A DNA stretch of 64,000 nt from Desulfogranum japonicum DSM 18378 (GTDB lineage Bacteria; Desulfobacterota; Desulfobulbia; Desulfobulbales; Desulfobulbaceae), in contig NZ_AUCV01000008.1 in assembly GCF_000429945.1 (NCBI RefSeq), forward strand, positions 1 to 64,000, read 5' to 3'. How positions within the stretch are numbered: position 1 is the first letter of the stretch; every line of letters begins with the position of its first letter. Of the stretch, positions 14,187 to 28,714 are shown piece after piece. The notes beneath the pieces were generated by a model. The model did no database searches and had not been told where the DNA came from. It saw only the letters and a list, made by a program, of their open reading frames with translations. A program made the position numbers and the translations under genes.

Positions 14187-16070
14187 ATGCCTAGAGTCGT
14201 AAGAAACAGAATATCGACTGCAAGCAAGCGACGCAGTAAGAGTCGGGCGATTGTCTGGCTCGTTGCAGTAATATTGATTGCAGGGGGAGCGGTAACGGCC
14301 TACAGGTTTTCTCCTTCTCTCCGCAAAATGGCGGTAACTGCGGGGTCGATAGCCGATAGAATTACTCAGAATTCAGCGGGCATGGAACCCGCTGAGTCTG
14401 TTTTAAGGGGAACGATCTACGATCACAAGTATAAGGAACTTGCGGTTTCCTATGCTGTTTATTCTCTGTATGCCAAACCTGTTGGGATGCATGTGGATTC
14501 TAAGTTGATTTCTTCGCTTGCAACCATAACCGGGCAAACGGAAAAAGATCTGGCAACCCTGTTGAAAAGCCATGCGCCTGTGGTCAGGCTGGCGGAAAAT
14601 TTAGATTACCATCAATCTGTAGAGGTGGAGAAACTCGGCGTACAGGGATTGTATTGTAGTGAGGAAGAGGTACGGTTTTATCCTGCCCAGAATGTTGGCG
14701 CCCACGTTATCGGTTTTGTGGGAGAGCAAATTGGATTGGCAGGAATAGAAGGGCGGTATGATGTTGTTCTTCATCCTGGTCAATTTATGGCATCTGATGT
14801 TTTCGAATTGGATGTCAATAAGGATGAAATACTCGGTGATACTATTGCTGACATCAAACTCTCTCTTGATTTATCCCTGCAAAAGGAACTGAATCAGCAG
14901 TTGCAGAGATATCTTGATGCCCAGGGGGTGTCTAAGGGTATTGGCATTTTGGTCAATCCGCATTCAGGGCGTATTCTGGCTCTGAGCAATTTACCCAGCT
15001 ATAATCCTAATTTTTTTTGGCAGGCTGACGCGGCAGTTCAGGAAGATAAAGTCTACCGTCAGAAATTAAGCAAAGAATTGATAACACCTCTTCTTGCTCG
15101 AACGGCAGCTATCTTACGGGAAGGTCTCTCCTATGACGGCGTACTGCCGGTGGGGGTTCGGGCACCAAATTACGGTGTGTCCGATGAAGACATCGCATCC
15201 CTGCAGCAAGAGTTGCGTTTGTATGCTCCTGTTGAGAGCAGCTGGGAGTCCGGCTATAAAGACAGACTACAGGCTGTACGGGAATCTATCCATGGCATGG
15301 ATAGCACATTGACAGGCGTACAGATAGAGGTTGCCCTGGCAAGTTTGATCAATGGAGGGTGGCGAATAGCGCCTTGGATGCTGGAAGGATTGTATGATCA
15401 CACTACCAGGAAAATGTATCCTCTGAATAAAGGGAAAATCACCCGAAATATGGTGCTTGAACCGGTTTCCGGAGTGTTACTTCGACGCGAGCTTTTTGCC
15501 GGGCGGGTAACAACACAAGGCAGTGATGAAACAAAGAAAGGACGTGTTGTCTCTGAGGTTTTCACGCATTCCGATATACATTTTTCTAAACAGACATCGG
15601 AATATGTGCAGCAACAGCTTTATGTCGGTATGATTCCTCCCAAAAAGCCACAGTATTTTTTAGTTCTCGCTGTTGAGGCGGATCAGATTTATCCCAGACC
15701 ACGTTCCGCGGACGATGATTCTGTGAGTATGGATACAATCGGCGAGCATATATTGACTCGCGCAATGGCCGCCGATCTTATGGTGGTTGACAAGCATCCA
15801 TTGGAGAAAAATAAAGAAAACATGAACAAATTTTTTGTCAGTAAGCGGCTGAATTTTCAACTCCCGGACAATCCGGTTCGTCAGCCGGTTATTGATATGC
15901 CGCAGCTTGCAGGTATGAGTCTGCGTAAAGCACTGCAAAGGCTTGGACAGCAAGATATGAAGGTGCGGATTAAGGGCTCAGGGACTGTCGTGGCTCAAAC
16001 ACCGGCAGCCGGACAATCGTTGCAGGGTATTACTGAATGTACCCTACGATTGGAATCAGGAAAATATTAA
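14187..16070 (+). CDS. ftsI: FtsI-like division protein with degenerate transpeptidase site and C-terminal PASTA domain
   Basis: Domain order matches FtsI/PBP3: a basic N-terminus, a membrane span (about residues 24-43), the pedestal domain starting at RGTIYD, a transpeptidase-like domain (about 215-515) and a PASTA domain (about 571-626). Family landmarks are clear: ILALSNLPSYNPN before the active site, TGVQIEVALASLINGG, and YVGMIPPKKPQYFLVLAV. The catalytic motifs are not. No SxxK follows YNPN: the region reads KLSKELITPLLART. No SxN is seen. The KTG position, 10-25 residues before YVGMIP, reads HSDIHFSKQTSEY. The YNPN-to-TGVQ distance is about 105 residues, versus about 150 in E. coli FtsI. 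The frame is intact over 627 residues, so this looks like a maintained pseudoenzyme, not decay. Confidence 0.85.
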   Translation: MPRVVRNRISTASKRRSKSRAIVWLVAVILIAGGAVTAYRFSPSLRKMAVTAGSIADRITQNSAGMEPAESVLRGTIYDHKYKELAVSYAVYSLYAKPVGMHVDSKLISSLATITGQTEKDLATLLKSHAPVVRLAENLDYHQSVEVEKLGVQGLYCSEEEVRFYPAQNVGAHVIGFVGEQIGLAGIEGRYDVVLHPGQFMASDVFELDVNKDEILGDTIADIKLSLDLSLQKELNQQLQRYLDAQGVSKGIGILVNPHSGRILALSNLPSYNPNFFWQADAAVQEDKVYRQKLSKELITPLLARTAAILREGLSYDGVLPVGVRAPNYGVSDEDIASLQQELRLYAPVESSWESGYKDRLQAVRESIHGMDSTLTGVQIEVALASLINGGWRIAPWMLEGLYDHTTRKMYPLNKGKITRNMVLEPVSGVLLRRELFAGRVTTQGSDETKKGRVVSEVFTHSDIHFSKQTSEYVQQQLYVGMIPPKKPQYFLVLAVEADQIYPRPRSADDDSVSMDTIGEHILTRAMAADLMVVDKHPLEKNKENMNKFFVSKRLNFQLPDNPVRQPVIDMPQLAGMSLRKALQRLGQQDMKVRIKGSGTVVAQTPAAGQSLQGITECTLRLESGKY

Positions 16071-21568: not shown

Positions 21569-21570
21569 CA

Positions 21571-21774
21571 ATGGTTACACTGTGCTGTGTGTGCGGCAGA
21601 ATCGAACAACGTGGCGAATGGCTTGATACATCTGATCTGGCTGACAACGAACTTGTTTCCCATGGATACTGCCCTGATTGTTTCAACGAAGCGATTCAAA
21701 ATATTGACCGTTATGAGCACGCCTCCGCTTCAGAGTTGTATCAATCTGATAAGATTTTTGTCCCACTCTGCTAG
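21571..21774 (+). CDS. Small CxxC...CxxC zinc-ribbon protein in the ftsW position
   Basis: The 67-residue product has two cysteine pairs, CCVCGRI near residue 5 and HGYCPDCF near residue 37, separated by a GEW-containing loop, which suggests one bound zinc. The arrangement C-x2-C...GEW...SHG-x-CPDC also occurs at the C-terminus of the receiver protein at 33363-34019 in this window and, to my knowledge, at the ends of some PAS and receiver signalling proteins. Here it stands alone. An AGGAGA site lies 8 nt before the ATG, and murG starts 3 nt after the stop, so it is embedded in the operon. Function is unknown. Confidence 0.75.
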   Translation: MVTLCCVCGRIEQRGEWLDTSDLADNELVSHGYCPDCFNEAIQNIDRYEHASASELYQSDKIFVPLC

Positions 21775-21777
21775 GTT

Positions 21778-25238: not shown

Positions 25239-26183
25239 ATGGCTGCCTACGTACCTCGAGGGAGTTTTTCATCAACTCCTCCCAAAAAAAACAAACCCGG
25301 TAAGCTGTCACAGCTATGGAGAAAGCTATGTTCGAGACGAGCACCTCGTGTTCGCTCATCTTCTCCACAGAATCTGATTGCAGGAATGCAGCGTAAAAAA
25401 ACGCCTCCGGTCAAATATTGTGTCCGGTTTATGATTGTAATTGTTTGTGCAGGGGGCGGTATGCTGGCTACCCATTTTGCACTGCAATTATTAAAAAATT
25501 CAGATGTTTTTTTAATATCTGATATTCTAGTGAGTGGAAATAAAGTCATCAGCAGGCAGCATGTCCTGAATACATCAGGTGTCGATCTCGGTAATTCACT
25601 GATAAGTGTAGACTGTTCTGAATTGGAAGCCAGGCTCCAGGATCAGGATCACATAGAGTTTGCAGAGGTAAAAAAATACTGGCCTTCAACATTGAAAATT
25701 CATGTGCAAGAGTTTGTTCCTTTGGCAATGGTGTATGTGGAGAGTCAATCTGGGGGCGGGCTGTATTATATGGATAAAGTTGGCAAGCTCTTTGCTAAAA
25801 GAGAACCAGGTCAGGAACTGGACTTTCCTGTAGTAACCGGAGTGCAGATTCCAGATCTGAGCCAGTCTGTTTCATTGCCTGCCGAAGGGTTGACCAGTGC
25901 CGCTTTGACCCTGCTCCAGCTAGCAGCACAGGGCGATGTGATTTTGCCTATACAGTCGATATCAGAGATACATTTGGATATGCAGCAGGGAGTGGTGGTA
26001 TACCTTGTCGATCAATCGTTTCCTATTTATTTTGGACATGAAAATATGAGAACGAGATATCATCGGCTGGTTGCCATCCTTGATAATCTTTACAGGGAAA
26101 ACAGTATCGAGGGCATTAAGGCCATTCGAATGGATTATATGCAAAATAAGGTGTTGGTTGCCAGGGCGGAAATGGACAGGTGA
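25239..26183 (+). CDS. ftsQ: Cell division protein FtsQ
   Basis: A basic, proline-rich cytoplasmic tail of about 65 residues precedes one membrane span (about 66-88). A POTRA domain follows (ISDILVSGNKVISRQHVL), then the FtsQ beta domain with YWPSTLKIHVQEFVPLA and a YYMDKVGKLF segment. FtsQ anchors FtsB-FtsL at the septum. The 314-residue length fits. The stop overlaps the ftsA start (GTGA). No ftsB is visible in this window, as is common, because ftsB usually lies elsewhere. Confidence 0.92.
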   Translation: MAAYVPRGSFSSTPPKKNKPGKLSQLWRKLCSRRAPRVRSSSPQNLIAGMQRKKTPPVKYCVRFMIVIVCAGGGMLATHFALQLLKNSDVFLISDILVSGNKVISRQHVLNTSGVDLGNSLISVDCSELEARLQDQDHIEFAEVKKYWPSTLKIHVQEFVPLAMVYVESQSGGGLYYMDKVGKLFAKREPGQELDFPVVTGVQIPDLSQSVSLPAEGLTSAALTLLQLAAQGDVILPIQSISEIHLDMQQGVVVYLVDQSFPIYFGHENMRTRYHRLVAILDNLYRENSIEGIKAIRMDYMQNKVLVARAEMDR

Positions 26184-27412
26184 AAAGCATGGACAATGTA
26201 GAGGTAAGAGAGACCGGAGAATTGGTTGCAGGTCTTGATATTGGAACAACCAAGGTCCTTGCTGTAGTCGGTGAGGTCTTTGATGATAGAATTGATATCA
26301 TCGGCGTTGGTACCGCTGCGTCAACAGGTTTGAAAAAAGGCGTCGTCGTAAATATCGAAGGAACAGTCAAAGCGATTCGTGAGGCAGTACGCATTGCGTC
26401 GGATATGGCTGGTTGTGATATTGAGACAGTGTATGTCGGCATTGCCGGGAACCATATCAAAGGCTTTAATTCACCCGGAATAATAGCTGTAAACAATCAG
26501 GAAATTAAAGAGAAAGACATCGAAGCGGTTATTCGGGCCGCTCAAACTGTAAAAATTTCTGATAATCAGCAAATCGTCCATGTGTTGCCTCAGGAATACA
26601 TGGTAGACGACCATACAGGTATCCAAAATCCTCTTGGAATGACAGGGGTCCGACTGGTTACCAACGTACATATTGTGACTGCCGACGTGACAGCACTGCA
26701 TAATCTTGTTACCAGTTGCAATCGTGCAGGTCTGGCAGTTTCTGAGATAGTTTTAGAATCGGTTGCATCCTCCCATTCGGTCCTGGGCAAGGATGAAATG
26801 GAATTGGGAGTTGCTCTTGTTGATATAGGTGGGGGCAGCACAGATCTTGCAATATTTTGTAATGGGACCATCAAACACACATGGGAACTTGCACTTGGTG
26901 GTAATAATTTAACCAGTGATCTCAGTGTAGGGCTCAGGACTCCGTTGCTGGAAGCAGAAGAGCTGAAATATTTATACGGTGGAGCTCTTTCTTCTATGAT
27001 TAAAGAAAATCATATTATCGAGGTTCCCACTGTGGGAGATCGCAAACCTCGCAAAGTCTCACAAAGGGTCATGGTCGAGATTCTCGAGGCCCGTATAGAA
27101 GAAATTTTGCAGATGGTTAATAAAAATATACATGCCAGTGGCTATCGAAATCGTATTAACTCCGGCGTGGTAATCACCGGTGGCACTGCTTTGCTGGCAA
27201 ATATTGTCGAGATGGCTGAACAGATATTTGATATGCCGGTGCGTGTTGGATATCCGTCAGGAGTCGGTGGCAGAAGTGAGGATGTACACTCGCCCAGATG
27301 TACTACAGGTGTCGGGTTAGTGTTGTATGGCAGTAAAGCTACAACATATTCCCCCAGCGAACACGGAGGGTTTTTGAGCAAATTGAAAAACTGGCTGAAA
27401 AATATCATCTGA
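26180..27412 (+). CDS. ftsA: Cell division protein FtsA
   Basis: FtsA is the actin-like membrane tether of FtsZ. Actin-fold nucleotide motifs are seen: GLDIGTTKVLAVVGE (phosphate 1), VDIGGGSTDLAIF (phosphate 2) and VVITGGTALLANIVEMA (adenosine). The 1C/SHS2 domain lies at about residues 90-170. The C-terminus ends in an amphipathic helix, GFLSKLKNWLKNII, which serves as the membrane anchor. GTG 26180 overlaps the ftsQ stop; ATG 26189 is also possible. Confidence 0.96.
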   Translation: MKSMDNVEVRETGELVAGLDIGTTKVLAVVGEVFDDRIDIIGVGTAASTGLKKGVVVNIEGTVKAIREAVRIASDMAGCDIETVYVGIAGNHIKGFNSPGIIAVNNQEIKEKDIEAVIRAAQTVKISDNQQIVHVLPQEYMVDDHTGIQNPLGMTGVRLVTNVHIVTADVTALHNLVTSCNRAGLAVSEIVLESVASSHSVLGKDEMELGVALVDIGGGSTDLAIFCNGTIKHTWELALGGNNLTSDLSVGLRTPLLEAEELKYLYGGALSSMIKENHIIEVPTVGDRKPRKVSQRVMVEILEARIEEILQMVNKNIHASGYRNRINSGVVITGGTALLANIVEMAEQIFDMPVRVGYPSGVGGRSEDVHSPRCTTGVGLVLYGSKATTYSPSEHGGFLSKLKNWLKNII

Positions 27413-27499: not shown

Positions 27500-28714
27500 A
27501 TGCCGTTCAGAATGGCTGAAGAAGAGTCTGTGGCAGTAATCAAGGTAATCGGCGTTGGTGGTGGTGGCGGTAATGCCATTAATACCATGGTAGAGAACCG
27601 ATTGGCAGGTGTGCAATTCATCGCAGCCAATACCGATATGCAGGCACTGGAGAAATCACGGGCTGATATTCGTTTACAGCTCGGGCCGGGCATAGCGAAA
27701 GGTATGGGTGCCGGTGCTGATCCGGAGACAGGCCAGGAAGCTGCAAAAGAAAGTTACGATGAGCTTCAAAACGCTTTGAGAGGGGCTGACATGGTCTTTA
27801 TCACCGCCGGTCTCGGTGGTGGTACAGGAACCGGTGCGGCACCTGTTATCGCTAAGCTGAGCCGTGAAGCGGGAGCCCTGACCGTGGCCGTCGTGACTAA
27901 GCCGTTTTATTTTGAAGCCAAGAAGCGCATGGGTAACGCTGAGCGTGGATGGGAGCAACTTAAGGAATATGCAGATACTATTATTACTGTACCCAATGAT
28001 CGTTTGCTCGGGCTGATGAATAAAAACTCCACCCTGGTCGATATGATGAAAATGGTTGATAATGTCCTTTTGCAGGCTGTTAAAGGCATTACTGATCTTA
28101 TCAATCTACCTGGCCATATCAATGTGGACTTTGCCGACTTGAAAACTGTTATGAAAGAAGTTGGACCGGCCATCATGGGGTCAGGTGCAGCTGTGGGTGA
28201 AAACAGAGCGAGTGAGGCCGCTAAGAGGGCCATTGATAACCAGCTTCTTGAAGATGTGGGAATTGATGGTGCCCGTGGAATCCTGATTAATATTTCTGCT
28301 GCTCAGGAAACCCTTACCATGAATGAATTCATGGAAGCTTCTGCTCTGATTCAGGAAAAAGCTCATGATGATGCCAATATTATCATCGGAGCATTGTTTG
28401 ATGAATCGCTGGGTGAAGAGTTGAGGGTAACGGTGATTGCTACAGGTATCCAAAGTATCGATGACTCTGAAACCATTTCTCAGCTCGACATGGTCAGGAA
28501 TCGTCAGGTTCAGCCTGTAAAGAATCAGAGAGCTGCAGTGGTAAATGGTATCGAAGAAGATACCACCTCTCAGGAGCCGAGTACCTTTTCCATTGCTAAA
28601 CCCAACAAAATGCCCAAAGGCCTGCCGCGAATGCCGCGACCGGTTTTTGACGATACTGAATACCATGACGATAGATACGATAAACCTGCATATTTGCGAA
28701 AAAAAGCTAATTGA
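27500..28714 (+). CDS. ftsZ: Cell division GTPase FtsZ
   Basis: FtsZ polymerises into the division ring. The tubulin signature [15 protein letters not shown] (near residue 104) and N-terminal [13 protein letters not shown] are complete. The T7 loop reads [11 protein letters not shown] with the catalytic aspartate. After an about 70-residue linker comes the conserved FtsA/ZipA-binding tail, [10 protein letters not shown]. Length is 404 residues. It closes the dcw cluster, 87 nt after ftsA, and an 11-bp hairpin follows about 80 nt downstream. Confidence 0.97.

Follow-up and report, generated by a model that had tools for sequence, protein, structure and literature searches.

Apparent loss of FtsW and of the FtsI active site across a class of Desulfobacterota

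FtsW and FtsI have been described as being regarded everywhere as indispensable for building the septal wall, the exception being C. difficile and many other Clostridia (PMC10693644). C. difficile divides with the class A PBP1 (PMC10693644), and septum synthesis is promoted there by the class B PBP3 independently of its catalytic activity (PMC12539705). E. coli PBP1b responds to FtsBLQ (PMC6325244), and four genomes of the Desulfobulbaceae, two from cable bacteria and two from Desulfobulbus, are reported to lack ftsW, zipA and ftsN (PMC7873302). The absence of ftsW in these four Desulfobulbaceae is what has already been published. In the open-licence PMC literature, at the level of titles and the starts of abstracts, we found no report of a motif-less FtsI in this group and none of FtsW loss beyond those four genomes.

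Here, we analysed an FtsI homolog encoded in the window, by which we mean the whole 64,000-nucleotide stretch from Desulfogranum japonicum DSM 18378. Judged from sequence alone, the whole class sampled, which we infer to be Desulfobulbia, seems to have lost FtsW and to keep FtsI only without its active site, so that the wall between daughter cells would probably be built by other enzymes.

The window FtsI and its dcw cluster

The genes of the cluster are ordered mraZ, rsmH, ftsL-like, ftsI, murE-murF fusion, mraY, murD, murG, murC, murB, ftsQ, ftsA and ftsZ (Table 1), several of these names resting on gene order and on reading of the translations. The cluster around ftsI is otherwise ordinary. 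murE and murF form one fused frame; long murE-murF-like frames also occur in several relatives, and two separate genes in other families. The gap between murD and murG is filled by a small frame with CxxC and CPDC, for which no Pfam match was found and which is perhaps metal-binding. Frames similar to it occupy the same place in L043 and L045.

Table 1. Coordinates of the features described; those without a locus label refer to the window.
Feature	Coordinates	Strand	Basis or remark
FtsL-like protein, 120 aa	13821..14183	+	Pfam FtsL E 0.0038 (below cut-off), DivIC E 0.0078; between rsmH and ftsI
Pseudoenzyme FtsI, 627 aa	14187..16070	+	Open frame; active-site columns without SxxK, SxN, KTG
Pedestal (PBP_dimer), residues 72-195	14400..14771	+	Pfam PF03717, E 2.8e-11; well conserved in 33 relatives
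Degenerate transpeptidase-like domain, residues ~225-530 (borders approximate)	14859..15776	+	Alignment to canonical FtsI
PASTA domain, residues 570-614	15894..16028	+	Pfam PF03793, E 3.8e-9
Fused murE-murF frame, 1028 aa	16037-19123
murD-murG gap, 209 bases	21569..21777	.	ftsW site in canonical clusters
Frame with CxxC and CPDC, 67 aa	21571-21774		No Pfam match
FtsQ	25239..26183	+	Pfam POTRA_1 and FtsQ_DivIB_C
FtsA	26180..27412	+	Pfam FtsA
FtsZ	27500..28714	+	Pfam Tubulin and FtsZ_C
Membrane-protein-like frames between murD and murG, f35/f65	L110:7085-7897, L111:7107-7910, L113:6692-7501, L118:6651-7454		By eye
Long class A PBP, own copy	L039:5203-8646		GT51 by Pfam

An earlier note, made from the sequence alone, had described ftsI as an open frame of 627 residues with a membrane anchor, a pedestal, a transpeptidase-like domain and a PASTA domain, in which the landmarks YNPN, TGVQ and YVGMIPP are kept and SxxK, SxN and KTG are missing. 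The frame, the landmarks and the lack of all three motifs at the columns aligned with the active site of canonical FtsI were borne out, and Pfam recognised both the pedestal and the PASTA domain. The transpeptidase-like domain can be aligned with canonical FtsI, and the model PF00905 matches residues 373-500 only, at 22.0 bits and so just below its cut-off of 22.1. The membrane anchor rests on visual inspection alone. The best two solved relatives, SpoVD and FtsI, align with residues 73-279, and bare S-x-x-K strings found elsewhere in the protein are SLRK, twice. The stretch between NPN and TGVQ is indeed shorter than in E. coli (103 against 142 residues), by 39 residues and not by about 45 as had been noted; in other FtsI of the phylum it spans 136-146 residues (both landmarks were found by pattern in 4 of 9). 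A predicted structure with one homolog as input reached a mean pLDDT of 30 and was discarded. The nearest named relative comes from a MAG labelled Desulfobulbus propionicus isolate DOLJORAL78_50_64 (63% identity).

Measured against what defines an FtsI, the protein has the PBP_dimer domain of a septal class B PBP and its gene lies in the ftsL-to-murE slot of the dcw cluster. The transpeptidase motifs are not there, and neither is an FtsW partner, the only SEDS protein of the genome scoring as RodA (398.6 bits against 285.7 with the ftsW model, below the ftsW cut-off). The gene of this SEDS protein lies directly behind that of PBP2.

Active-site motifs and SEDS proteins across the class

Relatives of the window FtsI were found in 55 of the 57 genomes searched. 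Leaving out G045, the remaining 54 were aligned with 36 from the class sample, which gave 90 genomes covering all but one of the 15 order families encountered (family labels such as f1 and f2 are those of the search tool). Ser and Lys do not occur together at the SxxK columns in any of the 90 order genomes, nor does KTG or KSG at the KTG columns. The letters S-x-N are present at the SxN columns of two rows (L053 and L069), where the other motifs are missing, and a few rows contain KTGT-, KSGT- or SxxK-like strings off the aligned columns. Contig ends truncate four rows (L016, L050, L051 and L060). The frame is split in G010 (509 + 176 aa), and its 176-aa row was dropped prior to the motif count. 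In the same alignment, the motifs were present in E. coli FtsI and MrdA, in all 13 FtsI from other families of the phylum (SxxK, SSN, KTGT) and in 10/10 PBP2, four from the order and six from outside (SxxK, SCD, KTGT). They were also intact in eight order PBP2 aligned separately, five of which are not among the 10. In the clearest parts of the alignment, the residues flanking SxxK are preserved and those of the motif itself are swapped in place; for f1, the placement of the motifs is alignment-dependent, since that zone is short and diverged. Several canonical FtsI score in the same PBP_dimer range as dead ones, and because this score fails to separate the two it was rejected as a discriminator in favor of the aligned motifs. 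The alignment with relatives that the earlier note had proposed as a check thus extends the motif loss to the whole order. An assembly error, which it had named as a possible refutation, is very unlikely, because 90 genomes are in the same motif-less state.

The number of SEDS proteins was counted in 159 class genomes with a completeness of at least 90%, and exactly one was present in 151. No SEDS was found in three (G005, G029 and G290). More than one match was obtained in five genomes: the frame of G012 is split in two, G023 and G034 each show an additional fragment where a contig begins, G252 carries two nearly complete copies (contamination 8%) and G303 gave three matches (contamination 7%), the extra proteins of the last two being assumed to be contamination. 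RodA adjoins PBP2 in all eight SEDS loci read (two in order genomes, six outside). A class sample of 58 genomes gave two PBP_dimer matches in 56, the second in G010 being a fragment; only FtsI was matched in G029 and only PBP2 in G040. In G029 (99% complete, FtsI in L014), neither SEDS nor PBP2 was found, which could reflect an assembly gap or possibly a member without RodA-PBP2. All 7 canonical clusters of the phylum that span murD and murG have a SEDS gene between the two, and none of five further order loci reaching murG does. At the level of sequence, it can be regarded as well shown that FtsW and the active site of FtsI are lost across the class. The earlier note had missed both the absence of FtsW and the reach of the loss outside the class.

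Families outside the class, origin of the loss and selection

Among 148 genomes of the phylum, a single SEDS was detected in 33, none in three and at least two in 112, the split frame of G012 being counted with the last. The 33 comprise five genomes of the class, 19 from ten other families and nine remaining ones. Four of these nine (G106, G110, G181 and G227) have one PBP_dimer protein each, and since it scores FtsI-like the missing pair seems to be RodA-PBP2; the other five (G093, G107, G137, G154 and G217) have two or more PBP_dimer matches. The ftsI slot could be read in nine of the ten non-class families. For f59, in which no rsmH was found, only the numbers of SEDS and PBP_dimer proteins were used. 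Proteins without motifs (5/5, 538-643 aa) occupy the slot in f28, f66, f72 and f76, the FtsI of f28 still scoring 101.8 bits with the transpeptidase model. In the five other families, the relic in this same slot is reduced to 248-457 aa: 457 aa in f75, 440 aa in f40, 334-340 aa in f39, where the pedestal is matched with an hhalign probability of 97.5 (three of the four genomes were read), and, in f65 (299-329 aa) and f35 (248-267 aa), a stub that matches the PASTA region with an hhalign probability of 97.7. All these lengths are those of stop-to-stop frames. Matches to ftsQ, ftsA and ftsZ were found in 9/9 non-class loci extending that far. The murD-murG gap is not covered in f28 and f76, and the absence of FtsW there rests on the SEDS count.

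A frame of ~267-270 aa, membrane-protein-like by eye, lies between murD and murG in f35 and f65 (Table 1). It is not recognisable as an FtsW remnant (hhalign probability 0.2 against SEDS and 0.1 against the MraY control), and no Pfam match was obtained for the two frames tested. In G130 (f52), scored 94% complete, SEDS, PBP_dimer and RsmH proteins were all not found.

A FastTree phylogeny of ten dcw markers from 44 taxa, rooted on E. coli and with partial marker sets for many taxa, united 32 of the 34 taxa that lack FtsW in a single clade (support 0.995). The other two, both from f28, adjoin a canonical family through nodes of support 0.09-0.67. A topology uniting all 34 was not rejected (IQ-TREE, AU p 0.272; only two topologies were compared). 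A single ancestral loss is compatible with this tree, two losses are not excluded, and f28 may represent a second, separate one.

Conservation was expressed as the average frequency of the most common residue among 33 relatives from the same family. It was 0.59 in the pedestal, 0.62 from pedestal to YNPN and 0.60 in PASTA, against 0.43 in the zone from SxxK to SxN and 0.36 over residues 416-470. The comparison of substitution rates proposed earlier (Nei-Gojobori, own script, ten closest pairs, which share members) gave dN/dS of 0.10-0.35 for ftsI, with dS above 1 in four pairs. By these ratios, the relic is under purifying selection; together with the conserved cluster position, they back its retention.

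Role of the relic, septum synthesis and known systems

The earlier note had inferred that catalysis was lost, that the protein is kept as a structural part of the divisome and that septal cross-linking falls to another enzyme. The first of these points is supported by the lack of motifs throughout the order (0/90 with SxxK or KTG), and the need for another enzyme follows from it, provided that the septum is cross-linked. Retention is likewise backed, as given above; the structural role is an inference. That ftsI is merely a decaying pseudogene has in its favor the lost motifs, the weakly conserved zones (0.36-0.43) and the split frame of G010, and hardly deserves credence given the low dN/dS and the frames kept in 14 families of the order. 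Just as little credit is due to a non-canonical active site of new origin: the domain is retained in degenerate form and selected, with N389, D404 and R433 at least 95% conserved in the 33 relatives, but residues 277-530 contain no Ser, Cys, Lys, Thr or His with an identity of 95% or more, and the domain is mostly or wholly gone in five non-class families. We infer that the relic would serve as a scaffold or regulator in the divisome. No single domain explains its retention, since the pedestal remains in some lineages and the PASTA stub in others.

Several enzymes could provide the septal wall. GT51 proteins were present in 45/45 FtsW-less genomes searched, with exactly one in 8, whose frames (614-733 aa) have the size of class A PBPs; a single GT51 is no mark of the FtsW-less group, as 1 of 11 controls also has one. 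The D. japonicum genome encodes four, all matching the transpeptidase model, one of them weakly, and this domain was checked only there and partly in G105. MreB was found in all 34 genomes searched. RodA-PBP2 and class A PBPs would be the common candidates, the latter not being singled out because RodA and PBP2 are also kept wherever the locus was read. The best reading is that either or both may build the septum, and the choice is not settled. We lean towards class A by analogy, since the class B PBP of C. difficile acts non-catalytically alongside PBP1 and E. coli PBP1b responds to FtsBLQ.

RodA-PBP2, as the only SEDS/class B pair left, might instead make both side wall and septum, recruited or activated at midcell by the relic with FtsL and FtsQ. 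The single SEDS of most class genomes (151/159), its place beside PBP2 in the loci read and the intact motifs of PBP2 (10/10 checked), with MreB present wherever searched, fit this possibility, which remains doubtful: G029 lacks SEDS and PBP2, barring an assembly gap, G005 and G290 lack SEDS, no sequence sign ties the relic to RodA-PBP2, and C. difficile, whose gene set is comparable, relies on class A. Likewise doubtful is the broader proposal that, after one ancestral dismantling of FtsW-FtsI in a clade comprising the class and several related families, a pseudoenzyme at the divisome core directs a general wall synthase, possibly RodA-PBP2; if true, one SEDS enzyme serves both elongation and septation. 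Cross-linking by L,D-transpeptidases is very improbable. YkuD proteins occur in 24/28 FtsW-less genomes, but none was found in G105, G112, G148 and G117, each at least 97% complete, which rules them out as a general replacement, and a glycosyltransferase would still be missing.

The order also has a long class A PBP of 1,102-1,182 aa (Table 1), in which GSTFK, KSEN and KTGT strings were seen by eye. Frames of this size exist in 26/28 order genomes (661 aa in G010, none in G062). It was set aside as a general replacement because relatives with 38-43% identity occur outside the FtsW-less set in f31, f44, f60 and f79 (SEDS counts 2-3, one in f79) and the other FtsW-less families sampled give only partial matches.

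On balance, and by a narrow preference only, we favor a pseudoenzyme FtsI kept as a non-catalytic divisome part, with the septum made by a class A PBP, perhaps helped by PBP2. Gene content and alignments document that FtsW and the FtsI active site were lost in an ancestor of the class and several related families. The relic was kept under selection, being no more than a short stub in some lineages, and is inferred to act with FtsL and FtsQ. Septal peptidoglycan may then come from the class A PBP, with PBP2 possibly aiding cross-linking, an inference drawn from C. difficile. This would be a second lineage, outside Firmicutes, in which FtsZ, FtsA, FtsQ and FtsL are kept and the core enzymes are lost or dead. 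It makes testable what the remaining divisome does without FtsWI and whether FtsI can be a pure regulator, and the relics, whose frames range from above 600 aa to 248 aa, amount to a natural deletion series for the FtsI domains.

The Desulfobulbaceae study agrees with ours on the absence of ftsW, for four genomes only; it counts FtsI as present, and the parts seen do not mention the missing motifs (PMC7873302). A C. difficile-type divisome is marked by the lack of a canonical FtsW-FtsI pair and the presence of a class A PBP, both of which are met here (the latter by the four GT51 proteins with transpeptidase matches). C. difficile likewise has no such pair for vegetative division, retains RodA-PBP2 and a class A PBP, and gives a class B PBP a non-catalytic role, as proposed here (PMC10693644, PMC12539705). 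It differs in that the SEDS and class B enzymes of its dcw cluster are dedicated to sporulation and in that it lacks FtsA (PMC10693644, PMC12539705), whereas here there is no dcw SEDS, FtsI itself has lost its active site, and the cells retain FtsA, FtsQ and FtsL. In B. subtilis, catalytically dead PBP2B can support division structurally while another PBP cross-links; that case is an engineered mutant with PBP3 as the substitute (PMC5656894), whereas the loss described here is natural, ancient and coupled to the loss of FtsW.
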